A stretch of DNA of 25,573 bases, taken from the IMG/VR virus record IMGVR_UViG_3300025127_000241, positions 1 through 25,573 of that record, one strand, 5' to 3'. Source of the stretch: a virus. A program made the translations under genes and the position numbers. Under the pieces are notes generated by a model that saw nothing but the letters and a program-made list of their open reading frames with translations, had not been told where the DNA came from and searched no databases. Shown here one piece after another: positions 4,028 to 23,998 of this stretch (position 1 is its first letter; each line of letters opens with the position of its first letter).

Positions 4028-4278
4028 TCACGTTCTCTCTTATCATCCCACCATCTTTTCACACTATGGGATATCTTTTCTTTGTGTTCAATAGTCTTAG
4101 GTTGTTTCATCTTTTCAATCGTATCCATAGTAAGCTTTCTATCCGACTGAGCGCATGATTTACATACACTGTTATTACCTACCGCCCTATCAAACGAATC
4201 TTTTCTTGTATAATAAATTACCCTATTACAATCAGGACATTTTCTGTTCTTTCTATCCTTCCAATGTCTTTTTCTCAT
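4000..4278 (-). CDS. Small zinc-finger / NUMOD3-like DNA-binding protein
   Basis: This 92-residue basic protein starts at ATG 4278 (MRKRHWKDRK); an in-frame GTG at 4293 would add five residues. It has a CPDC ... CKSC pair of cysteine knuckles about 23 residues apart, which looks like a zinc ribbon. A C-terminal segment MKQPKTIEHKEKISHSVKRW matches the style of NUMOD3 motifs, DNA-binding modules attached to homing endonucleases. No GIY-YIG or HNH catalytic motif is visible, so nuclease activity is not supported. It sits between the gp15-like gene and the giant fibre gene and overlaps the fibre start by 28 bases. It could be a remnant or stand-alone DNA-binding module of a mobile endonuclease, or a small regulator. 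The assignment rests on motif resemblance only. Confidence 0.6.
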   Translation of the reverse strand: MRKRHWKDRKNRKCPDCNRVIYYTRKDSFDRAVGNNSVCKSCAQSDRKLTMDTIEKMKQPKTIEHKEKISHSVKRWWDDKREREWQQLSQNS

Positions 4279-4282
4279 AGTA

Positions 4283-4290
4283 ATAAATAT
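4283..4290. promoter_or_regulatory. Intergenic ATAAATAT element, site 6
   Basis: ATAAATAT on the plus strand (ATATTTAT on the coding strand), in the gap between the gp15-like gene and the zinc-finger gene. It is only 4 bases upstream of ATG 4278, so if it is a promoter the small gene would be nearly leaderless, and it may rather serve the fibre gene. It is the least symmetrical of the six sites. Confidence 0.35.
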
Positions 4291-4317
4291 CACGAAATGG
4301 TAAAAGAAAAGTGGGAT

Positions 4318-9291: not shown

Positions 9292-10401
9292 TTAAATAAG
9301 GTTAGCCAACTTCTTAAACCTATCTCTCAAATCTGTGCTTTCAGAAATTACTTTCTTTTCAGATTTGGTAGATGCGACTGGCTTTGAAGCAGCTCCCTTA
9401 GATTCATTAATATTGTTTCTAGCATTAATAAAAGATTCACCAAGTGTGGAATAAACCAACTTGACTTCTCTTAGATTATTTGCTCTGTCGAATTGCTCAA
9501 CGACTTTCATCTTCTGTTCATTGTTAAGACCATACTTACGGAACAACTTGTTTGTAAATAATAGTTTAGCATTTAGCAGATTGACTTCATTTAGCTTTCC
9601 ACGAAGTGTTTCGATTACGGAACGATGTTCTTCAAGATCTGATTTAAGCTCTTTAACTTCATCCTTCTTTTCATCTTCTTCTTCTTCCTCTGAAAGTGCT
9701 TTAAGGACTTCATCAAGATCAATATCTTCATCCATATCATCTTCCTTATCCTCACCCTCTTTGAGTTTAGCTTTTCCGTCAGCTCCAACACCTGTTGTAT
9801 CGTTAGCTTTCTTATTGACTTTGTTATCACCCTTACCGATATCAGAAGAAACATCATTTTCATCCATCTTTTCATCTTCATCTTCTTTCTTAGCAATTTC
9901 GTCAATTTCAGATTCCAACTCTTTGATTACAGATTCTAAGTCAAGATCTTCATCCATATCATCTTCTTTTTCTTTCTTAGCTATCTCATCCATATCATCT
10001 TCATCTTCTTCCTCAGCGACTACAGGTGCGTACTTTACGCCATCTATTTCAATGATTTTGGATTCATCCATTTCTTCATCATCATCCATCTTCATTTCTT
10101 CCATGTCCTCATCATCATCCATCTTCATTTCTTCCATATCTTCATCGTCATCCATTTTCATATCATCCATTTTCATCTCATCCATATCATCATCTTCTTT
10201 TTCCTTCTTAGCGATATCATATACTTTGGAAACTTCGTTCTTTTCATCATCTTCATCTTCGATTTCATTCTGAATCTTCTGTGAAAGCATAGACTGTAGT
10301 TTAGGTGTGAAAGCCTCTTCTAAAGCCATCTTTGCATTTTCTAAAGCAGTCTCACGAACAGCTTTTGCGTCAGCAATTGCTTCTTTTAAGAGATCATCCA
10401 T
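9292..10401 (-). CDS. 22: Prohead core scaffold protein, gp22-like
   Basis: The 369-residue protein is strongly acidic. Its N-terminus MDDLLKEAIADAKA is helical and has an LKE|A motif that fits the gp21 cleavage rule. The centre (about 70-250) is a highly acidic, Met/Lys/Asp/Glu-rich region with short tandem repeats (DDDEDMEEMKM). The C-terminal third (LNEVNLLNAKLLFTNKLF ... VVEQFDRANNLREVKLVYS) is the recognisable gp22-type scaffold domain. Scaffold proteins form the internal core on which the capsid assembles and are then degraded by the prohead protease. T4 gp22 is about 269 residues; the additional length is the acidic repeat block. It lies directly before the capsid gene, with a good AGGAG site before ATG 10401 and a leader of about 120 bases holding an ATAAATAT element and a hairpin. 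Confidence 0.87.
   Translation of the reverse strand: MDDLLKEAIADAKAVRETALENAKMALEEAFTPKLQSMLSQKIQNEIEDEDDEKNEVSKVYDIAKKEKEDDDMDEMKMDDMKMDDDEDMEEMKMDDDEDMEEMKMDDDEEMDESKIIEIDGVKYAPVVAEEEDEDDMDEIAKKEKEDDMDEDLDLESVIKELESEIDEIAKKEDEDEKMDENDVSSDIGKGDNKVNKKANDTTGVGADGKAKLKEGEDKEDDMDEDIDLDEVLKALSEEEEEDEKKDEVKELKSDLEEHRSVIETLRGKLNEVNLLNAKLLFTNKLFRKYGLNNEQKMKVVEQFDRANNLREVKLVYSTLGESFINARNNINESKGAASKPVASTKSEKKVISESTDLRDRFKKLANLI
10060..10200 (-). repeat. Acidic tandem repeat in the scaffold gene
   Basis: In-frame short repeats encode EMKMDDDEDME-type units of about 11 residues (33 bases), three to four copies, with further DDMDE echoes on either side. On the plus strand they appear as repeated CATCCATCTTCATTTCTTCC blocks. 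Confidence 0.8.
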
Positions 10402-10469
10402 TGTTATTCTCCTATTTAGGATTTAGTATAGTTATTGGGAACTATAATAGAATTATTACATTTCGATTA

Positions 10470-10494
10470 CACCGTATGCGATAGGAACGGTGTT
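10470..10494. other. Hairpin in the scaffold-gene leader
   Basis: An inverted repeat ACACCGT (10470-10476) / ACGGTGT (10488-10494) with an 11-base loop. It is followed by TTTT on the plus strand only, so in the coding direction it is a leader hairpin without a U-tract, while in the antisense direction it resembles a weak terminator. Confidence 0.5.
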
Positions 10495-10510
10495 TTTAGT
10501 TTTGATATAT

Positions 10511-10518
10511 ATAAATAT
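10511..10518. promoter_or_regulatory. Intergenic ATAAATAT element, site 3
   Basis: The core lies in TGATATATATAAATATAAG, with a TATAT/ATATA dyad around AA. It lies just after the bS21 gene and about 110 bases before the scaffold start, upstream of the leader hairpin. It could start a scaffold/capsid transcript. Confidence 0.45.
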
Positions 10519-10524
10519 AAGAAA

Positions 10525-10752
10525 TTAGAATTTTTTACCCTTTTTGCGTGAATCTTCCTCTAAAAGTTTAATTTTTTTCCAATAATTACGGGCTTTAGCC
10601 TTATTTTTCATTTCTTTTTTAATATCGGATGGTTTTTTATAGAACTCTCTCTCCCTTAATTCATACATCATACCTGATTCTTTTACCTTTCGTTTGAATA
10701 CACTGAGAGCCTTGTCAATATTATTATTCTTTACGACAACCTTTATACCCAT
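10525..10752 (-). CDS. rpsU: Ribosomal protein bS21 homologue
   Basis: The 75-residue basic protein MGIKVVVKNNNIDKALSVFK continues with RKVKESGMMYELREREFYKK, which is the diagnostic bS21 pattern (V-V-N-x-x-I-x-x-A-L-x-x-F-K-R-K-V followed by E-L-R-E-R-E-x-Y-x-K-P). Length and charge are normal for the family and the C-terminus is Lys-rich. bS21 is a small-subunit protein near the anti-Shine-Dalgarno end of 16S rRNA and supports initiation. Phage-encoded bS21 genes are known in aquatic phages, so the presence is established in kind; its place inside the head operon, between a core protein and the scaffold, is notable. It follows the 211-residue gene by 9 bases. It may enter host ribosomes during late infection; this is inference. 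Confidence 0.9.
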   Translation of the reverse strand: MGIKVVVKNNNIDKALSVFKRKVKESGMMYELREREFYKKPSDIKKEMKNKAKARNYWKKIKLLEEDSRKKGKKF

Positions 10753-10761
10753 ACTTACCTC

Positions 10762-11397
10762 TTAATCTGTTTCTTTTTTCGCCTTGTAGTTTCTATCCAC
10801 ATAATTGAAGAAATCTTTTTTATCTTCATCACTCATACTTCCTACATTGGATACATTAAATTTTTTCATAGCTTTTTTAAAGAATGCTTTATAATCATCT
10901 TCCTCTCTGAACATCATCTTATCAGCTTCATCCATATCGCTTCTGACATCTCTATCATCATCGTCATGACCATACACATGCTTTTCATTTATCTTATAAT
11001 ATCTACTCAATATGTTGCCCATGTCCTCATAAAGACCTGTCATTCTTTCTTGAAGAGAATTAGCTTCCATAGCTACTTTGCCAAATTGTTTAGATAAACC
11101 AGTGAGTTCTTTCATATTACGACTAACTGTAACCTTATCAAACATATCATCTGTTTCAGATAAGGTATGTTGTGCAGCACCCTCAGCGATTGCTGATAGT
11201 GATTCCGCTACCTCTTTAAGATTTCCGCTACCATAGATACTTTCACCTATGGAATTATAATTACCGATTTTAGAAACTAATTCCTTAACATTTATCTGTG
11301 GCGTATCGTCATTTTCTTTAATCCATGGATTATGAGAAACAACACCACTAGCAACTCTAACTTCTTTTAGTAAATCTTTTAATTTTATATTAGCCAT
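10762..11397 (-). CDS. Putative prohead core / internal virion protein
   Basis: This 211-residue protein has no known catalytic motif. It begins MANIKLKDLLKE|VRVASG, an amphipathic leader with an LKE site that fits the gp21 cleavage rule. A helical middle (about 55-140) is followed by an acidic patch (HDDDDRDVRSDMDEAD) and a C-terminal module DYKAFFKKAMKKFNV ... DKKDFFNYVDRNYKAK, which I recognise as recurring in small marine phage proteins of unknown function. ATG 11397 has a strong GAGGAG site and an ATAAATAT element 19 bases upstream, so it may head a transcript including bS21 and perhaps the scaffold. A core or packaged role is inferred from leader and position. Confidence 0.72.
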   Translation of the reverse strand: MANIKLKDLLKEVRVASGVVSHNPWIKENDDTPQINVKELVSKIGNYNSIGESIYGSGNLKEVAESLSAIAEGAAQHTLSETDDMFDKVTVSRNMKELTGLSKQFGKVAMEANSLQERMTGLYEDMGNILSRYYKINEKHVYGHDDDDRDVRSDMDEADKMMFREEDDYKAFFKKAMKKFNVSNVGSMSDEDKKDFFNYVDRNYKAKKETD

Positions 11398-11415
11398 AAT
11401 ATTATCTCCTCAGAT

Positions 11416-11423
11416 ATAAATAT
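11416..11423. promoter_or_regulatory. Intergenic ATAAATAT element, site 4
   Basis: The core lies in GATATAAATATC, a perfect GATAT/ATATC dyad around AA. It is 19 bases upstream of ATG 11397 and directly precedes the GAGGAG ribosome binding site. Confidence 0.45.
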
Positions 11424-11437
11424 CTACCTTTCAAATT

Positions 11438-11764
11438 TTATTTCTGAAACTTATCATCTAAACCATCCTTACCATCTAAATAGTTATAAACTGATTGTAA
11501 GTAATCCATAGATTTTGTAAGTTTGGATTGAACCCAAGCAGGCATGCTAACCTCACCTCCTTTTCCCACATTATCAACTATGTTATAAATCATCTTAGCA
11601 TACTCCATAGATCTCTCTAATTGTTGTTTAGCCATCTTACCCTCATGGTCATCTGCTTCATAAACATTATACTTTTTCTTTCTATATAACATATCCATCT
11701 TATCAACATCTTTATCTACATAGTCTGCTGGGTTTTCTAATATTAAGTCTTTTAACTTTAACAT
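11438..11764 (-). CDS. Small conserved phage protein, putative prohead core component
   Basis: This 108-residue protein opens with MLKLKDLILE|NPADYV, again a short amphipathic leader with an (I/L)xE motif. The remainder (EGKMAKQQLERSMEYAKMIY ... MPAWVQSKLTKSMDYLQSVYNYLDG) is a helical domain I recognise as recurrent in marine T4-like phage genomes near the protease and capsid genes, without assigned function. Its ATG at 11764 overlaps the preceding stop by one base (TAATG), so it is translationally coupled. Position between terminase/portal and capsid genes is where T4 carries the small core proteins gp67 and gp68, but I see no sequence proof of homology with those. Confidence 0.75.
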   Translation of the reverse strand: MLKLKDLILENPADYVDKDVDKMDMLYRKKKYNVYEADDHEGKMAKQQLERSMEYAKMIYNIVDNVGKGGEVSMPAWVQSKLTKSMDYLQSVYNYLDGKDGLDDKFQK

Positions 11765-12744
11765 TACATACCTCTCGATGATTTTACAAACTTAAATGCT
11801 ATATTTGACATTCCCACAATCGATAACTTTGAAAATTTCTTTTTATTAGCAGTGTTTATAGCATCATAAACCTGAGTTATAGCGGAAGCCGTATATGTAT
11901 CAACCTTCATCTTTCTACCCAACTTAGGATCTTTTACCGATGAGTATCCTTTCTTTAAAACATTCCTTAAATCTTTAATAACCTGAGGATCTTTCATTTC
12001 ATTGAGATCACCATTCTTTTTCTTTTTCAAAAGATGTGGTCCCGCTGGTTGTTCTCCGAGGTTTCCATCTATACCATAACCACAGGTTCCCTCTTGTAAT
12101 GCTTTTTTAGCCTTTATGGAAAACTCTACCCAATGTTTTTTATAGAGTTTCATCAGCTCTAAAGCTTTTTTCTTATCTGTTTTTCCGATATCCTTAATTG
12201 AAGTTTTTATATCATTATCAAACTTATTCATATGGTTGTTAGCTATTTTATTAATCATAGAGGAAACTTCATTTACGGATTCTTTCATCCTATCTTTTAC
12301 TTTTTCAATTGGAGTTATATTTTTAGTAAACATATCTGCCAATCCCCTATCCTTTCTCGATATTTTATTTCTTAATTCTTTTAATCTATTTATAACAACT
12401 GATAATTTATATTTTTCACCTCTGTTATCGGTATAACTAAACTCTTTACTACCAGTTCTAGCATCTCTTTCAACAGCGTTTTTAATTCTGCTATATTGTT
12501 GGTCAAAATATTTTCTTATCTGTTGTATTCTTCTGTTAGCCATCCTATCACCGATACTAACCTCTCTGACCTTTTTAGGTAGATCATCATGCTTTGTTTG
12601 AGCATACTTCTTAACAGACTTTTTACTCATTGATTTTGCAGCATCCCTAGCCTTTTTGGAAAACTTTGACGCTGGAGCATCTCCCTTTTGAATAGCCCTA
12701 ACTATACCCATAAATTTTTGTTGTTGTTTAGAAGCTGCAGGCAT
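11764..12744 (-). CDS. Basic conserved protein with DUF3008-like N-terminus
   Basis: About 326 residues from ATG 12744. The N-terminus MPAASKQQQKFMGIVRAIQK ... AAKSMSKKSVKKYAQTKH matches the DUF3008-type pattern, which normally begins with MPA; this is why I chose 12744 over the in-frame ATG at 12798, which would overlap the preceding gene by 53 bases. A Lys-rich helical middle (about 70-230) leads to CGYGIDGNLGEQPAGPHLLK and a C-terminal DTYTASAITQVYDAINTANK module, both recurrent in marine phage structural regions. It is strongly basic, suggesting nucleic-acid contact inside the head. No catalytic motif is visible. If 12798 were used the protein would begin MLLNE|SIV, which also fits the leader rule of its neighbours. 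Function is unknown. Confidence 0.75.
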   Translation of the reverse strand: MPAASKQQQKFMGIVRAIQKGDAPASKFSKKARDAAKSMSKKSVKKYAQTKHDDLPKKVREVSIGDRMANRRIQQIRKYFDQQYSRIKNAVERDARTGSKEFSYTDNRGEKYKLSVVINRLKELRNKISRKDRGLADMFTKNITPIEKVKDRMKESVNEVSSMINKIANNHMNKFDNDIKTSIKDIGKTDKKKALELMKLYKKHWVEFSIKAKKALQEGTCGYGIDGNLGEQPAGPHLLKKKKNGDLNEMKDPQVIKDLRNVLKKGYSSVKDPKLGRKMKVDTYTASAITQVYDAINTANKKKFSKLSIVGMSNIAFKFVKSSRGM

Positions 12745-12745
12745 T

Positions 12746-13033
12746 TTAGAAAGCCATGTATATGTCGTGATAGTTACTATACTTTCGTTTAGCAGCATCC
12801 ATCAACATACCGTCTAATTTATTTCTAGCGGCCATCATTTCATTCATTTGACGAAACATATCATGTAATACCCTAATTGCCTCATATCCCTTTACCAAAC
12901 TTTTCAATTTCATCTCTTTAGCCAACATAATTCTAGCCCCATTATGGTCATTGTAATCCGTAAGTTTTGAAATTTTGCTAATTATTCTTTTGTCCAACTC
13001 GACCTTTTCTAACAATAAGTCCGTTAACTTCAT
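12746..13033 (-). CDS. Small putative prohead core protein
   Basis: This 95-residue helical protein begins MKLTDLLLE|KVELDKRI, the clearest of the capsid-targeting-like leaders in this region with an LLE site at residues 7-9. The rest is charged and Met-rich (FRQMNEMMAARNKLDGMLMD) with no recognisable domain. It follows the protease gene by three bases and ends one base before the ATG of the next gene. Location next to the prohead protease and small size are like those of T4 core proteins; identity with any T4 gene is not shown. Confidence 0.7.
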   Translation of the reverse strand: MKLTDLLLEKVELDKRIISKISKLTDYNDHNGARIMLAKEMKLKSLVKGYEAIRVLHDMFRQMNEMMAARNKLDGMLMDAAKRKYSNYHDIYMAF

Positions 13034-13036
13034 TAT

Positions 13037-13645
13037 CTATCCCCTAAGTATGTCGTTAATCACCGCTTCAACCCTACCATATTTAGAATCACGAACAGAT
13101 GCATTCCTATCCACACTCTCATTCATACCCTGTGGATACATAAAAGCACCATGCGTTGATGGATTGGAAACAAAATCGAAAGCGATTAGTTCAAAATCAT
13201 CCTGCACCTCCTGTGCACCATTTTCATTTATGGATTCAACCGATCCCATACCACGCGAAGAGATACCAAGCTTTATTCCATTCTTAAATAACTCTCTTAA
13301 AATATTTCCGCTTGGTGTGGTTAGTATCTCAACAGTTCCAACCAAATCATCTCCATTGAATGCCATCTCTGTAATATTATGAGATACATTGGCTAGGTTT
13401 ACAACAGATGATTCTGGATGATCTAACTCACCCATCGCTCTTTTTTGCTTTACGAATCCTTCCGAATACTTTTTAGCCTCACGCATCAGTATTTCTTTTG
13501 GGTAAACCCTACCGTTTTGGTTTTTAGTATCCGCTCTCTGTAACACACCCTTAACAACGAGCTTTCCATTGTTTTCCTTCATAGCCTCATTTATCTGATC
13601 GGCCTGTATTTCAAATGGTAGGTAATCTACTATTAATTGTTTCAT
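13037..13645 (-). CDS. 21: Prohead core maturation protease, gp21 family (S77)
   Basis: The 202-residue protein shows gp21-family landmarks: GVLQRADTKNQNGRVYPKEI (about 33-52), MGELDHPESS with the likely catalytic His76, LGISSRGMGSV with the likely nucleophile Ser at 129/130, and FDFVSNPSTHGAFM near 160-173. These proteases are assembled within the prohead, activated there, and cut scaffold, core and capsid proteins after (L/I)xE. T4 gp21 is about 212 residues, so this is full length. The ATG at 13645 overlaps the preceding stop (ATGA). Its substrates are probably the neighbouring proteins with (L/I)xE leaders and the capsid protein. Confidence 0.93.
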   Translation of the reverse strand: MKQLIVDYLPFEIQADQINEAMKENNGKLVVKGVLQRADTKNQNGRVYPKEILMREAKKYSEGFVKQKRAMGELDHPESSVVNLANVSHNITEMAFNGDDLVGTVEILTTPSGNILRELFKNGIKLGISSRGMGSVESINENGAQEVQDDFELIAFDFVSNPSTHGAFMYPQGMNESVDRNASVRDSKYGRVEAVINDILRG

Positions 13646-14463
13646 TTTTTATCTCCGAAAAATCTTTCGTAATTTTCTTTTAGTATGTGTTGTTTTGATT
13701 CTTTTATTGGTTTGTATTTTTGTCCATTGATTGTAATTGTCTCATTTTGTTTTTGATACATCAACTCTTGTTTAGCATCTTCATATGCTTCAGGTGTTGG
13801 GTTACCATCTGGTCCTATCGCATCACCACCATACCCTTCATCTTCTATATATTGCATTATTTCTGCGTGAGTTGGTTCATCATCCCCATCATCTTCTGGT
13901 TCATAATCCAATATCTGTTTTTTCAAATCACCCAAAGTCATATTAGAATCATCGGGTATGGATGCTACTGTAGCATCATCAAACTTTGAACTTACCAAAT
14001 CCATACCATCCCAGTATATATCATCACCGCCTATTTTATCCATTATTTCAGAATCGTTTTTTAACATATCCATAATATCATCAAGATCGATAGGACCAGA
14101 GTTAGCATCGGATATTTCTACATCATCACTTTCAGCATTATCATCTTCTGCATCAGCATCAAATCTCGCATCCCTATCCATATCATCAGCCTCATCATCG
14201 GCTGCTCTATTTGCATCTCTATCAAAATCACTACCGCCTAAAGATGAACCTTTTGGCTTTTCCTCACCACCATCTTTTTTGTCTTGATAATCATCATATT
14301 TAGTCATTGTATCATAAGCTATCTTTGCTGGATGATCTTGGGGAAGTTTTTTTGCAGAACCGGCTGGCATCTCTTGAGACTCACCTTCTTTATCCCTATA
14401 CTTAATCATTCTATCATCATCTATTTCGGTGATACTTTTTGCTAACTCCAATAATGATATCAT
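13642..14463 (-). CDS. Acidic putative prohead core protein
   Basis: This 273-residue protein is very acidic, with a disordered Asp/Ala/Glu-rich middle (about 85-125, DRDARFDADAEDDNAESDD) and a C-terminal ITINGQKYKPIKE module resembling a segment in the scaffold protein (IIEIDGVKYAPVV). It begins MISLLELAKSITE|IDDD, fitting the (I/L)xE leader rule, and ends with an ILKE site (KQHILKENYERFFGDKK). Acidic, cleavable, disordered composition and position directly before the protease are characteristic of core proteins that fill the prohead and are degraded. No domain of known function is visible. ATG 14463 overlaps the preceding stop by one base (TAATG). Confidence 0.72.
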   Translation of the reverse strand: MISLLELAKSITEIDDDRMIKYRDKEGESQEMPAGSAKKLPQDHPAKIAYDTMTKYDDYQDKKDGGEEKPKGSSLGGSDFDRDANRAADDEADDMDRDARFDADAEDDNAESDDVEISDANSGPIDLDDIMDMLKNDSEIMDKIGGDDIYWDGMDLVSSKFDDATVASIPDDSNMTLGDLKKQILDYEPEDDGDDEPTHAEIMQYIEDEGYGGDAIGPDGNPTPEAYEDAKQELMYQKQNETITINGQKYKPIKESKQHILKENYERFFGDKK

Positions 14464-14648
14464 TAATCTTTCTCCATCATAATTTCAGTTCTAAGACTCT
14501 CCAACTCCTCTATCCATTGGTTGAGTCTTGTTAACATATAATTCTTTGTTATCTCCTTTTTCTGTATCTCAATCTGCCATCTCTTTAACAATGTTGAAAT
14601 ACTAAAAAGAGTGTCCATATAGGACTTCTTTTTATCCTCAAACGCCAT
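14463..14648 (-). CDS. Small helical protein of unknown function
   Basis: A 61-residue protein (MAFEDKKKSYMDTLFSISTL ...) rich in charged residues and predicted to be almost entirely helical, possibly a coiled coil (LNQWIEELESLRTEIMMEKD). It is accepted as real because it fills the space between two genes with an 11-base gap before it and a one-base overlap after it, on the same strand. I do not recognise a family. Confidence 0.6.
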   Translation of the reverse strand: MAFEDKKKSYMDTLFSISTLLKRWQIEIQKKEITKNYMLTRLNQWIEELESLRTEIMMEKD

Positions 14649-14659
14649 AGTAATCTCGG

Positions 14660-15088
14660 TTATTGTAACTGACCTACTTTATTTGCTAGTTTTACTAACC
14701 TTTCACTTATTTTGTTTAAAGCTTTATGTGTATTTTTCCAATATGACTTAGAATCCACGTTCAATTCGTTCTTTAAACGCACATTCATTTTTACCAACCT
14801 ATTCAATTCATTGAGACTATCCCTAATCTCTCTCATAGATCTACCAATTTTTTGCTTAGGAGTCATAGTCTTATCATTTCTATAATCGTGATATCTACCT
14901 TCATTTACCCTATCATATCCTGTAGAGTTGGTAGCTATCTTTTTCTCTTTATCTTTATCTTTTTTTCTCTTACCTCTGAAAGCATAAGGTGTCTGATAGC
15001 CAGGCACATTAGCAGAGGTTGAAGCCTCCTCAAGCTCATTTTTAATTAGCTCACGAATAATCTCTTTTAGCTTATCCAGCTTTGACAT
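14660..15088 (-). CDS. Conserved phage protein with capsid-targeting-like leader
   Basis: This 142-residue basic protein begins MSKLDKLKEIIRELIKNELE; the leader ends LEE|ASTSANVPGYQTPYAF, fitting a gp21 cleavage site before Ala22. Then come a Lys-rich linker (about 40-52), a GYDRVNEGRYHDYRNDKTMT block and a helical C-terminal domain ending SERLVKLANKVGQL. I recognise the post-leader segment as recurrent in marine T4-like phages without a named function. It overlaps the preceding gene by 17 bases. An internal, packaged or core role is likely from the leader; it has no enzymatic motif. Confidence 0.74.
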   Translation of the reverse strand: MSKLDKLKEIIRELIKNELEEASTSANVPGYQTPYAFRGKRKKDKDKEKKIATNSTGYDRVNEGRYHDYRNDKTMTPKQKIGRSMREIRDSLNELNRLVKMNVRLKNELNVDSKSYWKNTHKALNKISERLVKLANKVGQLQ

Positions 15089-15935
15089 TCTTTAGCTCCT
15101 TAACCAATTCATAATATCTCATAAGTGTGACAACCTGTTTATCCTCAACTATCCTACCTTTCATTAGGGTATCTGCTTGATTTACAGCCTCATTAAGCTT
15201 AATCTTTGTTACTTTATCATCAACTGTTGGAAGAATTGATTGGAGTTTTTTCTTTACCCTTACAGTTTCAGATTCTATGAACTCTTTTAAAGAATTTGTA
15301 TTAGAAATGTTATTTATATATTCCTTTAGAAGTTTTTTCTGTGAATCGCTTAGATTTTTGTACTTTTTATTAAATTTTTCTACCAATATACCATAAGCTA
15401 ACAATCGTAAGTCCTTTTCTTGCTTTTTATATCCCTCAACAAGCTTTTTTTCATTTGTTTTGTTTGAAATATTCTTTCTGGTGATGTGTTCAACTATTGT
15501 AAAACGATTTTGTGTCTTATCCGCTGGACTTTCTGTATTTTTATCTTCAAATAGCTTATAAATTGACGCACTAACCTTATAGTTTGATATTCTAGCCATA
15601 AAGAAATCATTTACATCGTAATTTTTCTTAATTTCTTTAATTAAGTTATATTTTTCTCTTTTTAATGATGAACTATTTAATTTTTGATGTGCTTTTATCA
15701 CTGCATCTACTAAATGATTAGCTTTAGATTCTGATTTGTAATTTTCTGTTGTTAAAACCCTATATAAATCATATTCCTTTCCTAATTGTGTTTTTTTATT
15801 AAAAAAAGACTTTAAAATGTTAGCAGCCTCAGCTTTTTTATTATTATTTAAGACATCTACTGTTATTTGGCGTGTCAATAATTCAAATAATATTCCTGTA
15901 TTACGAATTTTTGAGTGCTTTGTCTTTGAACTCAT
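15072..15935 (-). CDS. Conserved phage protein of unknown function after the portal gene
   Basis: The chosen start is ATG 15935 (MSSKTKHSKIRNTGILFELL), which has a GGAG ribosome binding site six bases away; a TTG seven codons upstream lies over that site and is less likely. The 287-residue protein is basic and mostly helical, with blocks LLTRQITVDVLNNNKKAEAA, LGKEYDLYRVL and RISNYKVSASIYKLFEDK. It resembles proteins found next to the portal gene in other marine T4-like phages, all without known function as far as I can tell. No catalytic motif, signal or membrane segment is visible. Confidence 0.8.
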   Translation of the reverse strand: MSSKTKHSKIRNTGILFELLTRQITVDVLNNNKKAEAANILKSFFNKKTQLGKEYDLYRVLTTENYKSESKANHLVDAVIKAHQKLNSSSLKREKYNLIKEIKKNYDVNDFFMARISNYKVSASIYKLFEDKNTESPADKTQNRFTIVEHITRKNISNKTNEKKLVEGYKKQEKDLRLLAYGILVEKFNKKYKNLSDSQKKLLKEYINNISNTNSLKEFIESETVRVKKKLQSILPTVDDKVTKIKLNEAVNQADTLMKGRIVEDKQVVTLMRYYELVKELKNVKAG

Positions 15936-15940
15936 ATTAA

Positions 15941-15945
15941 ACTCC
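15941..15945 (-). promoter_or_regulatory. Ribosome binding site fixing the start at 15935
   Basis: GGAGT on the minus strand, with six bases between GGAG and ATG 15935. It lies inside the longer alternative reading frame that would start at TTG 15956, and so argues for the shorter protein. Confidence 0.75.
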
Positions 15946-15966
15946 AATTTATACAATTCTTCATAT

Positions 15967-15974
15967 ATAAATAT
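15967..15974. promoter_or_regulatory. Intergenic ATAAATAT element, site 5
   Basis: The core lies in CATATATAAATATATG, a perfect CATATAT/ATATATG dyad around AA, the most symmetrical of the six. It lies between the portal gene and the gene starting at 15935, 32 bases before that ATG. Confidence 0.45.
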
Positions 15975-15982
15975 ATGATTAA

Positions 15983-17791: not shown

Positions 17792-17801
17792 AATATTATC
17801 C

Positions 17802-19373
17802 TTATTTAATTAACCAATCTAATGATTCCTTTTGTCCGTTCACTTCCCATTCCCAACTATTATTCTCTTTAGTTGGTTTTTGTGGGATCATTTGAGAGGA
17901 AACACCACTTAGTGTTCTTCTTTGTAAATCTATACCCTCATTTCTTAACCTTAATGCAGTATCTCTAACCCATAGTGTTAAAGCAAAGCTCATTACTAAG
18001 TCATCATTGTAACCCTGCATAGCTTCAGCTTTATTATTGTTATATATAAATACAAAAAGTTCATCAATTAATCTATTTGAACGAACAATTACTGTCTTTT
18101 CTCTAAAATATTCCTCTAATTTAGCAACAACCAATGGTCTTGTTTTCATTGTCATACTAAATCCAGCAACCATATTACGATCTTGATTTCTATATCTATT
18201 TGTCATTTGATGTTGCGTATCTACATATTTTAAATCTTTGCTCATATAAAATAAATTTTCATAACCCCTATCAATACACTGTTGAAGAGCAGCCCAACCT
18301 ATGTTATTGTTTTCAATAACTAACAATGCATTGTTATATTCTGTAGCTGTGTTCACACAGAGGTTTCCAAAATCCTTTGTAGATATTTTACCCCTATATT
18401 CTGCAACCTGTTCCATAGTCTCAACATCCATAATATGAAATGCAGAGAAATCTGTTCCATCGCCTCTACTTACATCAGCACTTAATACATAATCCTTAGT
18501 ATAATTTGCTGGTTGCCATATCCAAAGATTACTATCTATACCTCTTTTTTCTAACGGATTTTGAACATGAGTTTTTCTATATTCATCTAATATAACACCA
18601 TCTATAACATTTTGTCCAGAAGTTAAGAAGTCACAATCACACTCTTGTGCAGCTAATGAAGGACCTAAAAGTCTATCCTGTTCAGTTCTCCACTCATCAT
18701 TTCTTTCAGGATGTAAGTTCCAATGTAGTTTAATAAAGTTCCAATCATTCTCACCCTCTTCAGCACCAACCCAAGTCTTATGAAACCAATTACCAATACC
18801 ATTTGGTGTGGATAGTGCGATACACTGTCCACCAGTTGATAGTGTCTGTGAAGCAGCAGCCCATATCGGTTCAATTTTATCGATGAAAGCAGCCTCATCC
18901 AATATCAGTAAAGATAATGCTTCTGAACGACCACTATCCTCACCGCTTGATACAGCCTTTATTTGTGATCCGTTACTATATCTTAAAGAGAGTTTATTAT
19001 CCTCAGTGCATTTCTGTTTTAACCAACTCGGTAGATTAGCATGCATCACCCTAACTTTAGTTACTAAGTTTTTAGCAGTATCCTGTTTTGTCGCAATTAC
19101 CAATATGTTTTTGTCTTGATGAAAAGTCATCATCCATAATGAGTATCCAGCGGTTAGTGTTGATAATCCTAACTGTCTAGCTTTTAGTATAATATTAAAC
19201 CTATGTTCTTCAAAAGTCTGTAATGATTTTTCTTGATACTCATATAGATGAAAGGGTACTTTACCCTTCATAGGATGTTGAACCACACAATATTTTTTCA
19301 TAAAGTACGCAGGATCTTTAGCGCATTTTAGATACTGTTTTTTTATTACATCTTTTATAGGTGTTGGTTTCAC
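17802..19373 (-). CDS. 17: Terminase large subunit, gp17 family
   Basis: From GTG 19373 the protein has 523 residues. The ATPase domain has Walker A KARQLGLST (about 64-72), Walker B LLILDEAAF (about 155-163) and the coupling motif STPNG (about 188-192). The nuclease domain has acidic residues of the RNase H-like fold: SADVSRGDGTD (Asp about 300), VIENNNIG (Glu about 354) and YNDDLVMSFAL (Asp 457/458). It pumps DNA into the head through the portal and cuts it. I prefer GTG 19373 (VKPTPIKDVIKKQYLKCAKD): it has an AGGA site eight bases away and shares one base with the preceding stop (TAGTG). A TTG at 19409 would add 12 residues and overlap the previous gene by 37 bases. No small terminase is recognisable next to it. 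Confidence 0.95.
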   Translation of the reverse strand: MKPTPIKDVIKKQYLKCAKDPAYFMKKYCVVQHPMKGKVPFHLYEYQEKSLQTFEEHRFNIILKARQLGLSTLTAGYSLWMMTFHQDKNILVIATKQDTAKNLVTKVRVMHANLPSWLKQKCTEDNKLSLRYSNGSQIKAVSSGEDSGRSEALSLLILDEAAFIDKIEPIWAAASQTLSTGGQCIALSTPNGIGNWFHKTWVGAEEGENDWNFIKLHWNLHPERNDEWRTEQDRLLGPSLAAQECDCDFLTSGQNVIDGVILDEYRKTHVQNPLEKRGIDSNLWIWQPANYTKDYVLSADVSRGDGTDFSAFHIMDVETMEQVAEYRGKISTKDFGNLCVNTATEYNNALLVIENNNIGWAALQQCIDRGYENLFYMSKDLKYVDTQHQMTNRYRNQDRNMVAGFSMTMKTRPLVVAKLEEYFREKTVIVRSNRLIDELFVFIYNNNKAEAMQGYNDDLVMSFALTLWVRDTALRLRNEGIDLQRRTLSGVSSQMIPQKPTKENNSWEWEVNGQKESLDWLIK

Positions 19374-19777
19374 TATATTTTTCCTAAAATAAATCCAATA
19401 CCCAACCAAAGATATGTATTTTCATACCATTTTGGTTGAAGTGTTTTTATGAGTTCTTCATTTGTTTTTTCACGTTCTTTTAACAAGGTGATTTGTTTAC
19501 TCTTTGCTTCTGATAGAACTTTTTCCACTTCAGCATACTTTTGTAATTCTTCAATTAATTCATCACTTTCAGAAAGCATAACTTTGTAATCCTCTATCAA
19601 TGTATCTGCTTTAGCTAATTTACCTTCCCACTGTGCATCACGAGCTTTCAACATTTCCAATGCTTCGTCATAAGTAAAAGTAGTTGGTTTTTCACCACCT
19701 TTTTTTATTTCCACCCCGTTACCTTTGGTTAAGGATAGAGCAAAAAAACATATTATAAAATATCTTAATATCTTCAT
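19373..19777 (-). CDS. Secreted/membrane coiled-coil protein, possibly spanin-like
   Basis: From ATG 19777 the protein has 134 residues. The N-terminus MKILRYFIICFFALSLTKG is a signal-peptide or membrane-anchor sequence. The middle (about 35-115) is a charged, likely coiled-coil region (ALEMLKARDAQWEGKLAKAD, LIEELQKYAEVEKVLSEAKS). The C-terminus YLWLGIGFILGKI is a short hydrophobic segment that could be a second membrane anchor. An upstream GTG at 19789 would add four residues, but ATG 19777 has a better-placed GTGAG. Signal plus coiled coil plus C-terminal anchor is the layout of unimolecular spanins that fuse the two membranes at lysis, but I see no lipobox cysteine. The spanin idea is a hypothesis; a virion or membrane accessory role is equally possible. 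Confidence 0.62.
   Translation of the reverse strand: MKILRYFIICFFALSLTKGNGVEIKKGGEKPTTFTYDEALEMLKARDAQWEGKLAKADTLIEDYKVMLSESDELIEELQKYAEVEKVLSEAKSKQITLLKEREKTNEELIKTLQPKWYENTYLWLGIGFILGKI
19382..19385 (-). promoter_or_regulatory. Ribosome binding site supporting the GTG start of terminase
   Basis: AGGA on the minus strand, eight bases before GTG 19373. It lies within the end of the preceding gene, consistent with coupled translation through the TAGTG junction. Confidence 0.55.
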
Positions 19778-19785
19778 AGTTAATC

Positions 19786-20097
19786 TCACTTACTCTTAGC
19801 AAAGTTTCTAAGAAAATCTTCGGCTGATTCAACCTCATCGTTATCATAAGCTTCTTGCATTTTCTGTGTTTTCTTTTTACTGTTAGTTAGTTTTCTTTTT
19901 AAATTACCGACTTCTTTTTTAGAAGCAGTTTTGGCTTTTTCTAATTCCTTAATTTGCTTTTCAACTTTTTTTTCTTGTTTTTTATTTTCTTTTATAACTT
20001 TTTTTAATTTTTTAACTTCTTTACTCTTAGCAGCACCAGCCGCAAAAAGTCCACCAACTAAACCTAAAAAACCTAATACTAATTTCCAAATCTTCAT
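19786..20097 (-). CDS. Small membrane-anchored, Lys-rich coiled-coil protein
   Basis: This 103-residue protein has an N-terminal hydrophobic helix (MKIWKLVLGFLGLVGGLFAA, with GxxxG-like glycines) followed by a long Lys/Glu coiled coil (about 25-85) and a short acidic tail ending FLRNFAKSK. Topology resembles an i-spanin (Rz-like) or a small membrane accessory protein. It lies immediately before another coiled-coil membrane protein, so the two could act as a pair at the envelope, perhaps in lysis. No endolysin or holin is visible nearby, which weakens that idea. Its ATG shares a base with the preceding stop (TAATG). Confidence 0.62.
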   Translation of the reverse strand: MKIWKLVLGFLGLVGGLFAAGAAKSKEVKKLKKVIKENKKQEKKVEKQIKELEKAKTASKKEVGNLKRKLTNSKKKTQKMQEAYDNDEVESAEDFLRNFAKSK

Positions 20098-20624
20098 TAC
20101 TCTTTCTCCAATTTTTCTAAAGCATCTTCATATTTTTCTATAGCCTCATTTGCTTCTTTTTTTACTCTTTCCATATCAATATCCCATTTTTCTTTTTTTA
20201 ATTCAGGATAATTAACACCAACATTATTATACCACTCAGGAGCTTTTGAATCTTTCCACTCTGATATTACTTGTATCTGATCTTTGATAAAAGCAATTTT
20301 ATTTTTTTTAATTTTTTCTTTAGCCCACTTCTCATATTTACCTTCAATACGAAGTTTATTTTCTACTTTTACCTGACAATCAAAACAATGTCCGAAAAGT
20401 CTCCACATTTTGTCATCTAATTTTTGTTTCATAACTTTTTTACAATCAGGACAAAACCAAGGCATTCTGACATCTTGCATTATTTCTGTCATTTTAGAAA
20501 TCTTATCTTTCTTTTTTTCTTTAGGTTTATTATATCCAACCATTACTCTTTTCTCAGGTTCTCTACCAGCTAATAAATCACCCAATACTTTGTTTTGTCT
20601 TTCTGTTTCTTTACTATAACCCAT
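20097..20624 (-). CDS. Zinc-ribbon protein of unknown function upstream of terminase
   Basis: The 175-residue protein has a four-cysteine zinc ribbon: MPWFCPDCKKVMKQKLDDKM (about 54-73) followed by FGHCFDCQ (about 77-84). The N-terminus is basic and polar; the C-terminus (about 145-175) is a charged helix. I recognise this zinc-ribbon arrangement as a conserved unknown near terminase genes in marine T4-like phages. Since no gp16-like small terminase is evident, a DNA-recognition role in packaging is conceivable, but nothing in the sequence proves it. ATG 20624 lies two bases after the stop of the large nucleotidyltransferase gene, with a GAGG site overlapping that stop codon, so the two are likely coupled. 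Confidence 0.7.
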   Translation of the reverse strand: MGYSKETERQNKVLGDLLAGREPEKRVMVGYNKPKEKKKDKISKMTEIMQDVRMPWFCPDCKKVMKQKLDDKMWRLFGHCFDCQVKVENKLRIEGKYEKWAKEKIKKNKIAFIKDQIQVISEWKDSKAPEWYNNVGVNYPELKKEKWDIDMERVKKEANEAIEKYEDALEKLEKE

Positions 20625-20626
20625 AA

Positions 20627-23600
20627 TTACCTCGCAAACTTTAATATTCCTAATATCTGATTAACAGGAGCAAAAGCGCCTGTATACTTATATAACTTTC
20701 CTTTAAACATAAATGTGACTCCTTCGCTCGGTATGATAGCATCAAATCCACCCAAAGCGTTTAATCTGTCTAATTGTGTTTTCAGTAATCCCATCTGTTT
20801 TGGATCTTTTGCTTTCCTTATACCATCGATAGCCTTAGTTAAATCTTTTTTTATCTTCTGTACAGCTTTATCAGGATTAGCTGCTATAAAATCTTTTATG
20901 TTTTTTAATACCTCAGCACCTAATTCAAAGAAAAGCACCTCCCAATCCCTTATGTGTTTTTTCTGTAACTTAGCGTGATCCATTTTATCGGTTGTTAAAA
21001 CCCATTCTAAAAATTTTGGATAATCCTTCAAATCCTTTTTTATCTGTGGTATCTTATATGACTTATCAAAGAATGCCCATCTTTTTAAAAGTCCACCCAT
21101 AACATTACTCGTTACATTTGGATTATCTGTTTGTTTTCCTGCGTTATAAATATACTCATACCAATAAGCCTGATGATAGTCTGCTAATGTGTCTGTATCT
21201 TTTAATCCATATAGTTTTTGTAATTTATTCAATTTACCTAAAAAGTAATTTTGTCTAGCAGAAAAGTCCTTTACCTTCGGTAATGAAGAAACAAATGGTT
21301 TTGTTATGCTATAGGTTTTTTGAACATTTTGATTTATTTGTTTTATCATACCAGCTAACATTCTAGCACTACCCCTATCCTGTGAAACAGGTGAACCATC
21401 TGCATCATACTCTATGGTGCCGTGAAACTGTAATAATGCTTTATCATAAGGTATTACATTTGCTGTTTTCGGATATATAACCTCTAACGACATAAACTTC
21501 TTACCCTCTGCAAATATTTTATCCTTTTGTTTTTGACTCAATCCTTTAATGGCTATCTGTAAATCTCTCATAGCGTATACAAAGGCTTTCTCTATATCAC
21601 CCCTACCAGCAAACATATTAGCGATACCCTTTATATCAGGTGCGTTTGCTCCAAAATTCTTAATATGTCCTTTATTACGAGCAGCTATGAGCTTTCCATT
21701 CTTCCAACTAATCATAATATTCTGACCATCGGTTTTTTCTGTAACAGCACCCTCACTGCTGAGATTGCCTTGTAGCGTATTAATAATTAGTGTTCTGAAA
21801 TCTGAAAATGTAAGATTTTTGTTGTCAAACGGATGACTTAAATGTCCGTATGCACCACCCATAAGCAGTAACTCCTTTCCTTTATTTCTTTGTGTTAAAA
21901 TATTTCTAGCATTAATACTCTCATAAAATGTATTTTTTGTAACCTCATATGAGTCACCATCAGCACCTGTTAACATCAAATCACCTATGATATTATCTAT
22001 AGCTGCCTCTGTTCCCATCCAATCAACTACTTGCCAACCTAAAGGTTCTACAACAGTTGTCATCCATTTCTTATAATTATTTATGGCACGTTTGGATCTT
22101 TTTTGTTGGCCATGATCTAAAAATGTTAAGGGAGCTGATACATAATGTTCCTCACCAACATTTCTTCTCTTATGAACATCATCAGCCCTCGCTACATTAT
22201 CCTTTGGGTCTATGGCTCTTTTATTAACAATGTAATCCAAAACCTTCCAACCTGCGCCACCATATATTGAGTTTATCCAATCCGTAGAATCCTTCTTATA
22301 CTTTTCTAAACTCCTATAGTAAGTTGATGGTCCATCATCTAAGTTTCCTTGCGGAGTTGATGAGGATTCTAGTAAAAACTCCTCTATGAGTTCATCTGTT
22401 AGGGTGTAGGTTTCAAACAACTTTTTAAAGCTATTTGTCATCATATCATAAATGGACTTATCATAATATCCAAAAGATTTTTTGAATAACTTCTGTCTCT
22501 TATCATCATCAATCTTAGGATCTCCTAAAATCTTTCTCATCTGTGTTCCGCTAACAGTGCCCGATTGCGGTGCTGTTATGAAATATCCATGCTTTTCAAA
22601 TCCAACCAAATCATTCTTATTCTTATTATAATCCTGATAGTATGATTTGCTACCATCCTTCTTAGTTCCCGATTTTAACCTACCAGCATCCTTCTCACCA
22701 AAAGCATAAACAACCGCTGTCTTATCCGAATTCAATTTCTTTAGAACATTCGTTGCTATGTATGGTGATTTTTCCATAACTATGCGATTTTTGGGAACGC
22801 CCATCTTTACAATATGTTTAACCTTTTCATTAAAATTCAAAGGATGCCGAGGTGGTTGTTTTATGTTGGATGTCGTTATGTAAACATCATCAAATTTTTT
22901 CTTTAGAAAATTATAGGTGGCTAAATGGCCTGAATGAAATGGTTGAAACCTACCACCATAAACCGCCACAGTTTTTGTAATTTTGTTCTCTTTCAAAAGG
23001 GTCGTATTATCCATATTATCAACTATGGAATTTACGAATTTTTTAGTATACAAGTCAAGACTTTCTTTTATTTTTTTATAACCGCTACCATAAGGAACTG
23101 ATGTGTTTCCTTTCCTCTTCATCTTCTTTACCATCTTACGGCTTGGTGATGGTAAGAATCCTTTAGGTGCACCAAACTCCTCATTCTTCTTTTTGGTTTT
23201 CTTTTTCATCTGATTGATGTAAGCCCTATAGACAGCGGCTTGTGAAGCCTTACCCATCTCCCTAGCTCTCTGTTCCATAGCTACAGCAGCTTGTATTTTA
23301 TGTGCATGAGATTTACCGCTGTTTCTAATTTTGCTGACTGATGCTTTTGCATCTTTGACTGTAGCAAACTTCAATCCCTTTATCGTACCCTTTGGATTCT
23401 CATCTGTGTATAAATCAGAATGAGACTTAGAACCCCTATGCTGTCCTTTCTTACGGGGCACCCTCGGTGCCTCATTCTTCATCAACTGTTTCATCTGTTT
23501 TTCTAAATCAAGAATCTTCAATTTTAATTTATAACTACCTGCCTGTGGCCCGAACCCACCATACTTTCTTATCAGCTCCATTCTTTTTCTATGTAACCTA

Positions 23601-23998
23601 CCGTACTTCAATTGGGTTTTTCTATCAACCTCACCCAAAAGAGAAAGTCCTATCAAAGCCATAGCCTTATCTCGTGGAGTCTGACCTTTGAATTTTTTGG
23701 CTACCTTTTTATAATTTTTCTTCATCATATCCGTAGCATCTTTAGCAGAGTTTCCAAATCTTTGAAGAAGAGCATGTATGTTTTTCTCTTCGGATTCATT
23801 TACCTTTTTTAAAATTCTGAATTTCAACGCAGGTCTGCCGTTGATGAGGAGATCACCATTATCGTTGTAATCTATCGATTTAACCACCACCTTTTTATTC
23901 TTAAACCTACCCATAAGGACGGTATCACCCACCTCTATGGGTATCTTAACATCTTCCTCTATGATTGGTTTTATAAGGCTATCTACTAATTTTTTCAT
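20627..23998 (-). CDS. Multidomain nucleotidyltransferase and ligase-like protein, possibly capsid-packaged
   Basis: The 1123-residue protein begins MKKLVDSLIKPIIEE|DVKIP, a capsid-targeting-like leader. Residues 21-63 (VGDTVLMGRFKNKKVVVKSI, INGRPALKFRI) resemble a KOW-type beta domain. Residues 85-320 are basic, with KGLKFATVKDAKASVSKIRN, seen in other marine phage proteins. Residues 341-500 form a cytidylyltransferase-like domain with GGRFQPFHSGH (348-358) and SGTQMR (483-488), as in NMN adenylyltransferases. Residues about 700-1123 carry ligase/nucleotidyltransferase motifs: EKTDG (Lys755 as possible adenylated lysine), ARNKG (773-777), FMSLEVIYP (835-843), EGVTF (1092-1096) and KLYKYTG (1101-1107), with a long helical insert of about 250 residues between the last two blocks and the first three. 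LLKE|N (334-338) and LLE|S (542-545) precede the two enzyme domains and also fit the protease rule. Substrates are unknown; NAD-related or RNA/DNA end-repair chemistry is possible. Confidence 0.82.
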   Translation of the reverse strand: MKKLVDSLIKPIIEEDVKIPIEVGDTVLMGRFKNKKVVVKSIDYNDNGDLLINGRPALKFRILKKVNESEEKNIHALLQRFGNSAKDATDMMKKNYKKVAKKFKGQTPRDKAMALIGLSLLGEVDRKTQLKYGRLHRKRMELIRKYGGFGPQAGSYKLKLKILDLEKQMKQLMKNEAPRVPRKKGQHRGSKSHSDLYTDENPKGTIKGLKFATVKDAKASVSKIRNSGKSHAHKIQAAVAMEQRAREMGKASQAAVYRAYINQMKKKTKKKNEEFGAPKGFLPSPSRKMVKKMKRKGNTSVPYGSGYKKIKESLDLYTKKFVNSIVDNMDNTTLLKENKITKTVAVYGGRFQPFHSGHLATYNFLKKKFDDVYITTSNIKQPPRHPLNFNEKVKHIVKMGVPKNRIVMEKSPYIATNVLKKLNSDKTAVVYAFGEKDAGRLKSGTKKDGSKSYYQDYNKNKNDLVGFEKHGYFITAPQSGTVSGTQMRKILGDPKIDDDKRQKLFKKSFGYYDKSIYDMMTNSFKKLFETYTLTDELIEEFLLESSSTPQGNLDDGPSTYYRSLEKYKKDSTDWINSIYGGAGWKVLDYIVNKRAIDPKDNVARADDVHKRRNVGEEHYVSAPLTFLDHGQQKRSKRAINNYKKWMTTVVEPLGWQVVDWMGTEAAIDNIIGDLMLTGADGDSYEVTKNTFYESINARNILTQRNKGKELLLMGGAYGHLSHPFDNKNLTFSDFRTLIINTLQGNLSSEGAVTEKTDGQNIMISWKNGKLIAARNKGHIKNFGANAPDIKGIANMFAGRGDIEKAFVYAMRDLQIAIKGLSQKQKDKIFAEGKKFMSLEVIYPKTANVIPYDKALLQFHGTIEYDADGSPVSQDRGSARMLAGMIKQINQNVQKTYSITKPFVSSLPKVKDFSARQNYFLGKLNKLQKLYGLKDTDTLADYHQAYWYEYIYNAGKQTDNPNVTSNVMGGLLKRWAFFDKSYKIPQIKKDLKDYPKFLEWVLTTDKMDHAKLQKKHIRDWEVLFFELGAEVLKNIKDFIAANPDKAVQKIKKDLTKAIDGIRKAKDPKQMGLLKTQLDRLNALGGFDAIIPSEGVTFMFKGKLYKYTGAFAPVNQILGILKFAR

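Follow-up and report, generated by a model that had tools for sequence, protein, structure and literature searches.

Short exchangeable leaders ending in (L/I)xE on head-module proteins of an uncultivated marine T4-like virus

The virus record IMGVR_UViG_3300025127_000241, which in its full length of 25,573 bp forms the window analyzed here, encodes seven proteins with short leaders resembling the capsid-targeting sequences (CTS) of phage T4, together with a homologue of the T4 prohead protease gp21. We consider it likely, with a probability of about 0.8, that these leaders are capsid-targeting-like and are cleaved by gp21, in a modular cargo-loading scheme of T4 type. This reading builds on the sharing of leaders by unrelated proteins, their enrichment in the head module, their exchange between bodies, the conservation of the predicted sites, and an intact protease. 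The source of the window is an uncultivated far-T4 virus, marine and T4-like. In capsid protein identity, it comes closest to Microcystis phage Mel-JY01 (51%) among named phages, just ahead of Flavobacterium phage immuto (49.5%); Rhodothermus phage RM378 follows at 36%.

RESULTS

Leader-bearing proteins and their predicted sites

All window features described here lie on the minus strand. In transcription order, a 1123-residue protein (23998-20627) is followed by three small genes, TerL, and the portal gp20 (17791-15983). Then come a 294-residue open reading frame (ORF; 15956-15072), proteins of 142 (g15088), 61, and 273 (g14463) residues, gp21, and a 95-residue protein (g13033). The series ends with a DUF3008 protein, proteins of 108 (g11764) and 211 (g11397) residues, a bS21 homologue, a scaffold at the gp22 position, and the major capsid protein gp23.

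The seven N-termini quoted in the sequence-only reading were all confirmed as those of ATG-started minus-strand ORFs, with 5' ends at 13033, 11764, 11397, 14463, 15088, 10401, and 23998. The bodies downstream had been called unrelated, and indeed, when the leaders were stripped, blastp gave no pairwise match among the seven proteins even at E<=1. The predicted leaders, 9 to 21 residues long, sit on bodies without detectable mutual similarity.

Comparison with orthologues placed the predicted sites. The 95-residue protein (12746-13033) starts with MKLTDLLLE| (residues 1-9; 13007-13033), and its orthologues in loci L024, L026, L031, L033, and L034 read MKLKSLLLE|KV and MKLKDLLVE|KV. The leader of the 108-residue protein (11438-11764) is MLKLKDLILE| (residues 1-10; 11735-11764); in this family P1 is Glu in 7 of 9 sequences and P2 is variable, and in L010 and L017 MIKLKDIL(N/T)E is fused straight to the conserved body ADDHEGKMAK. 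Orthologues of the 211-residue protein (10762-11397; leader MANIKLKDLLKE|, residues 1-12, 11362-11397) have P1 Glu in 26/26 cases, with L/I at P3 and K/N/E at P2. For the acidic 273-residue protein (13642-14463; leader MISLLELAKSITE|, residues 1-13, 14425-14463), P1 was Glu in 19/19.

The leader claimed for the 142-residue protein (14660-15088) was present as MSKLDKLKEIIRELIKNELEE| (residues 1-21; 15026-15088), with the conserved site at E21: orthologues read (L/I/V/M)xE21|(A/V)(S/T), P1 being Glu in 48/48 and P2 taking seven residue types. The 1123-residue protein (20627-23998) likewise kept its leader, MKKLVDSLIKPIIEE| (residues 1-15; 23954-23998), with a site that had to be moved, E15 being conserved in 5/5 sequences and E14 not. 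In its relatives, M(D/K/N)KLT..L.KPFL(N/V/E)E| precedes different N-terminal domains. The site MDDLLKE|A proposed for the gp22-position scaffold (9292-10401) was rejected, as E7 is not conserved (MDDLLKD in L050, L061, and L066; DLLKQ in phage immuto). Within the N-terminal 29 residues of this scaffold (10315-10401), the predicted site is instead LEE29|AFTP, conserved in 11/11.

The gp21 homologue at 13037-13645 was confirmed by Pfam (Peptidase_S77, 3.8e-29), by PHROG 207 (head maturation protease, 4.9e-53), and by T4 alignment. It is a gp21-type prohead protease (MEROPS S77) with the triad H76, S129, and D157: H85 and S140 of T4 gp21 are kept as H76 and S129, and the invariant Asp157 aligns with a T4 Asp. 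The protease carries a predicted N-terminal propeptide of its own, MKQLIVDYLPFEIQADQINE|A (residues 1-20; 13586-13645), whose site across orthologues is (I/V)(N/T/S)E20|(A/S), with P1 Glu in 48/48 and only A/S at P1'. Similarly, orthologue comparison predicts for gp23 (7621-9276) a 62-residue propeptide ending in LIKE62|A (9091-9276); the orthologues read (I/L)(K/D/Q)E62|(A/S), with P1 Glu in 13/13. The gp21 site INE20|A and the gp23 site LIKE62|A were absent from the sequence-only reading, as were E337 and E544 within the 1123-residue protein. Across orthologues of several families, as at the gp23 site, the P1 Glu is almost fixed while P2 drifts. Furthermore, P3 is Leu/Ile in 72 of 75 leader 9-mers, although the pattern used to find them also permits V, M, F, and A.

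Enrichment of the leader in head modules

The comparative set consisted of 80 related loci and five longer contigs, with a single gene-calling rule. A loose pattern, [LI]xE with the E at residue 7-15, was found in 7 of the 25 called window genes, against a rate of 10.6% among internal Met-anchored segments (binomial p=0.013), and in 6 of the 12 genes of the gp20-gp23 module of the window (p=7e-4). Of the genes that lie upstream of TerL or at a distance from the head module, 16-18% have it too, and a looser form matches a likely endolysin in the 164.8-kb relative G001 (MLTKFDDIIEVVLHHEGGYVNDP). Because of this background in ordinary genes the pattern alone is no cargo predictor, and its genome-wide use for that purpose was rejected. 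The loose pattern by itself is weakly diagnostic, whereas the KLKDLLxE form is highly specific.

In the 80 loci, this specific form, M-x(0-5)-K-[LIMV]-[KRTSQEN]-[DENSKQRLTA]-[LIFMV]-[LIVMFA]-x(0-1)-E, was present at 94 of the 245 distinct N-termini of head-module accessory proteins but at only 5 of 633 elsewhere and in 5 of 6,211 internal Met-anchored segments. Counted by body family, the ratio was 16/54 in the head module versus 5/259 elsewhere (p=8e-10). Since the pattern had been composed after the first loci were seen, it was frozen and then run on 68 further loci, which gave 54/179 versus 0/105 (p=5e-13). An equal frequency of the specific form in non-structural genes was not found. Up to six strict leaders were counted per genome (L073, G011).

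With a leave-one-family-out profile, the top eight of the 25 window genes were the seven proteins named at the outset plus gp21 (g14463 scoring only 1.5). On G001, two KLKDLLxE proteins were clearly top, and the other classes were mixed with background. The suggestion that the leader predicts cargo elsewhere in the genome was examined in longer relatives (e.g., G010), where the KLKDLLxE class marks likely cargo outside the head module but the other classes are lost in the background.

Exchange of leaders between bodies

A few leader classes were distinguished: KLKDLLxE, SLLEIAxxINE, MKILESYxxM...LxxE, LSKITTRYxNRLxE, xLKEQYxRFFGxLxE, and KLTxxLxKPFLxE. The most telling new evidence is that leaders are exchanged between bodies. 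The body AGVPNHLRAGFKKLK (E|AGVPNHLRAGF), 97% identical between two loci, has MIKLKSLLE| in front of it in L076 but MDLRQLSKITTRYTNRLDE| in L075. The body E|EQPFxGRxTPDIA is preceded by MIKLKSLLNE| in L128 and by MKNLKEQYIRFFGSLNE| in L074, and E|AVDEGDF by MIKLKEVMNPIKE| in L121 and MDLKELSKITTRYNNRINE| in L077. In the same way, the RDPGIFKA body (E|G(A/Y)RDPGIFKA) carries MDKLTEFLTKPFLNE|GA in G001 and MIKLSELLHE|GY in G011. Bodies of the 273-residue family occur with three leader types, MISLLEIAxxxNE|, MKILESYxxM...LxxE|, and MIKLSSILLE|. Where leaders were exchanged, the changeover lies at the predicted Glu or one to two residues away. A seemingly leaderless body in L126 was rejected as proof of a detachable leader: an in-frame, GTG-started leader lies directly upstream.

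Several small head-module proteins (L071:10612, L073:10918, L104:17248 [G011 37248], and L064:6056) share a further candidate class, ...KW(K/R)D(F/W)RL(x)E|.

Modules and internal sites of the 1123-residue protein

The middle module of the 1123-residue protein (residues 338-544; 22367-22987), of nicotinamide mononucleotide (NMN)/pantetheine adenylyltransferase type, lies between the predicted sites LLKE337| and FLLE544|. It belongs to the HIGH superfamily of adenylyltransferases, with a Pfam match to CTP_transf_like (2.9e-9) and, as its best Foldseek match, a nicotinic acid mononucleotide adenylyltransferase (E 2e-3). Residues 545-1123 (20627-22366) form an RNA-ligase-like nucleotidyltransferase module, identified by motifs and weak fold matches. 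K755-x-D757-G758 and E1092-G1093 are invariant and correspond to motifs I (KxDG) and IV (EG). The top Foldseek matches, T4 Rnl1 and Rnl2, are weak (E>=0.28; model pLDDT 58), and VIA re-alignment, with models of modest quality, gave Z 4-5 to several RNA/DNA ligases. A search of PDB sequences with this module returned only sub-threshold ribosomal protein matches. No hallmark polyvalent domains, such as ArdC-N or MPTase-PolyVal, were found in the 1123-residue protein, for which Pfam gives CTP_transf_like alone.

In L062 the ligase-like module is a separate ORF, and its N-terminal leader MKTLSEDLIKRFLKE| matches the internal TLTDELIEEFLLE| of the window protein. Similarly, an FGxPLPTL domain is N-terminal after MNDKYLKE| in L166 and internal after SDKFLTE| in L081. 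In the structural model, all three predicted sites of the 1123-residue protein fall where confidence is low (stretches 1-20, 269-337, and 529-726). Based on the internal sites, the L062 split, and the FGxPLPTL case, the sequences suggest that the 1123-residue protein may be a polyprotein with NMN adenylyltransferase-type and RNA-ligase-like modules.

Leader-bearing enzymes in relatives

Two enzyme domains of relatives also stand behind KLKDLL-type leaders: one, in L100:7563-8345, is a NUDIX domain (5.7e-11), and the other, in L104:1043-1798, is a Zeta-toxin/P-loop kinase domain (7e-9). The former protein additionally has a sub-threshold match to MPTase-PolyVal. It belongs to about five leader-bearing genes in L100:3721-8345 (G010), far upstream of the head module, and this cluster looks like a second cargo locus. 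Among the head-module genes listed for Kyanoviridae (cyanophage ACG-2014g, pelagiphage Mosig), the same leader classes were not seen. In phage immuto, the three proteins gp092, gp077, and gp076, encoded close to the head genes, share a separate leader, NFxLxxFLxENKLTxNxxxLxE; (L/I)xE sites are predicted for neighbouring head-module genes and IVSE| for its capsid protein. In the literature, we found no CTS-like leaders in marine phages, an absence that is no proof, and in the open literature no paper on virion proteomics of immuto. At about 135-161 kb, G001 contains a long gene run (L088-L090) with N-termini resembling those of sugar-metabolism/glycosyl enzymes, plus hypotheticals.

Other features of the window

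The DUF3008 protein (MPAASKQQQKFMGIV...; 11764-12744) is near-constant in the module. A leader was never seen on it, and its length is highly variable, with relatives of up to 790 residues (G011). The bS21 ribosomal protein homologue (10525-10752; TIGR00030, 4.1e-14) is encoded amid the cargo genes of the head module and has no leader; in Mel-JY01, RpsU is found in the same module.

The C-terminal tail of the 273-residue protein, HILKENYERFFGDKK, looks like a leader class, MKNLKEQYERYFGxLxE, with which other module genes begin; the likeness involves its L044 and L052 orthologues as well as L073:6658 and L074:6439. In T4, the C-terminus of Alt is processed too. The motif I(E/T)I(D/N)GxKY(A/K)P(V/I) occurs in this protein, in the gp22-position scaffold, and, close to the N-terminus, in L004:10607 (MKRIIEINGKRYKAINE); it is possibly a shared core-binding hairpin.

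Two further genes had no NCBIfam match. One (24055-25563) encodes a Gly-rich repetitive protein that resembles a tail-fibre tip adhesin. The other, a small ORF (4000-4293), combines a CxxC...CxxC pattern with a TIEHKEKISHSVKRWWD stretch reminiscent of homing-endonuclease DNA-binding modules.

DISCUSSION

A cargo-loading scheme and its rivals

In the scheme that we favor, cargo and core proteins would each be docked by a short amphipathic N-terminal leader into the prohead core as it grows, and the gp23 shell would then build around this core. gp21 would enter with its own leader-like propeptide and cleave core, shell, and cargo proteins after (L/I)xE, freeing the mature cargo before DNA packaging. 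The cargo would presumably leave the head with the DNA at ejection. The scheme is strongly modular in this far-T4 clade, where a handful of leader classes are exchanged among unrelated bodies, enzymes included. From sequence evidence we infer targeting, cleavage, packaging, and ejection of the leader-bearing proteins; for incorporation into the prohead by the leader, it is the enrichment in the gp20-gp23 module that argues, and exchange at the site speaks indirectly for removal of the leader. The likeness to T4 CTS drawn in the sequence-only reading is apt in part. The leaders are short, N-terminal, located on unrelated proteins of the prohead module, and end in (L/I)xE, but they form several classes and the site first assigned to gp22 is not conserved.

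The leaders could also be core-assembly helices that bind gp22 and are retained, their (L/I)xE end reflecting helix capping and not a protease site. They are indeed amphipathic, their mean hydrophobic moment being 0.45, against 0.31 in internal 9-mers with a terminal E, and the gp22 leader accepts Asp at P1, where Asp in T4 stops processing but not targeting (PMC9026906). We nevertheless regard this as improbable: within each family, all 13-48 distinct sequences have Glu at P1 despite the drift at P2, leaders differing in length and class switch at this very residue, and capping leaves the (I/L)xE|A/S signature at gp23 E62 and gp21 E20 unexplained. Exchange at the P1 Glu also bears on the idea that modular DNA recombination has produced the shared N-termini incidentally, with a conserved 5' segment serving as a functionless crossover point. 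Body exchange is common, and identical leader residues within genomes share codons beyond the free-choice expectation (30% differ). Yet synonymous changes build up while the peptide is kept (AAA/AAG, GAT/GAC, and TTA/CTA/TTG in the window leaders), non-homologous leader classes interchange at the same peptide position, which is beyond the reach of shared DNA, and leaders are nearly absent outside the head module, cargo-like clusters excepted. Recombination without function is thus very unlikely. Coincidence deserves slightly less credence still. Many phage proteins begin with a charged amphipathic helix and hold an LxE triplet, which would fit the background of the loose pattern and its endolysin hit in G001. 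The KLKDLLxE form, in contrast, hardly ever occurs in internal segments, it was replicated with the pattern frozen, and no equal frequency was seen in non-structural genes.

Several points weigh against capsid targeting and cleavage by gp21. The DUF3008 and bS21 genes, though within the head module, encode proteins without a leader. The specific pattern was composed after inspection of the first locus set, the replication loci were drawn from the same wider clade, and replication restricted to new families gave 4/22 versus 0/15 (p=0.13), a difference in the same direction that is not significant alone. Because the family clustering split homologues (FGxPLPTL bodies), the 16 leader-bearing families correspond to fewer than 16 independent ones. 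A fixed rule was used to assign start codons, and a wrongly placed start accounted for one seemingly leaderless case. Finally, leader codons for the same residue differed within genomes less often than the 34-67% (by residue) expected under free choice, and hence some leader copies are recent DNA copies.

A wider reading, in which the prohead protease processes cargo precursors inside the head, the enzymes are injected as a kit, and leaders recruit new cargo, is tentative, and we think it rather less probable than its opposite. One leader would admit large precursors with adenylyltransferase, RNA-ligase-like and, in relatives, P-loop kinase modules. Their internal leader-like (L/I)xE sites would then be cut to yield separate enzymes, which would be delivered along with the DNA, an NAD+/RNA-repair kit ready for use against host defences. 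By fusion of a gene behind an interchangeable leader, the phage could gain new cargo.

Comparison with known systems

T4 gp21 has the specificity L/I-X-E, and the propeptides of internal proteins comprise 10-19 residues (PMC9026906). The internal proteins of T-even phages are diverse, with the CTS as their sole common part (PMC3012670). The window resembles the T4 CTS system (IPI-III, Alt) in its short leader on unrelated proteins, the (L/I)xE end, and an S77 protease with the same triad (PMC3012670, PMC9026906), and its protease and core genes lie in the same gp20-gp23 neighbourhood. Unlike in T4, there are several leader classes that are exchanged between bodies, the putative cargo is encoded mainly between gp20 and gp23, and internal sites are predicted in a polyprotein-like enzyme; targeting and cleavage were demonstrated in T4 and are deduced from sequence here. 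The T4 protein that we compared with the window leaders was gp24, from which gp21 removes a 10-20-residue propeptide (PMC5694885). Its start, MAKINELLRE|S, fits the leader pattern, but gp24 is a shell vertex protein, unlike the predicted core cargo of the window.

Phages phiKZ and SPN3US also have a gp21-related protease that cuts after Glu, and the SPN3US paralogues gp53 and gp54 have identical N-termini (PMC5694885). Their sites are A-X-E (SPN3US) and S/A/G-X-E (phiKZ), often with propeptides of >100 residues, in contrast to L/I-X-E and 9-21 residues in the window. Virion packaging of NUDIX/ADP-ribose enzymes (PMC9503650) and of polyvalent proteins (PMC5512222) was proposed from gene neighbourhood. 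These multi-domain enzymes, like the putative and perhaps multi-domain cargo described here, are encoded beside head genes and predicted to enter the cell with the DNA. The earlier predictions rest on neighbourhood and fusions, to which the window adds a leader peptide and a protease site as a sequence-level signal.

Functions have been assigned to only a minority of the head-module genes of uncultivated T4-like phages. A leader and a protease site that are readable from the sequence would mark those head-module proteins that travel in the virion and probably enter the cell by injection, and uncharacterized virion cargo could be predicted in this way from sequence alone. The CTS idea, so far established in T-even phages of Escherichia coli, becomes testable across a diverse marine clade, with exact, falsifiable N-termini offered for proteomics. 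Such a test is feasible on an isolate, the cultured phage immuto, in which three proteins share a leader class of their own. Injection would probably come right at the start of infection, the point at which the contest of defence and counter-defence is settled.

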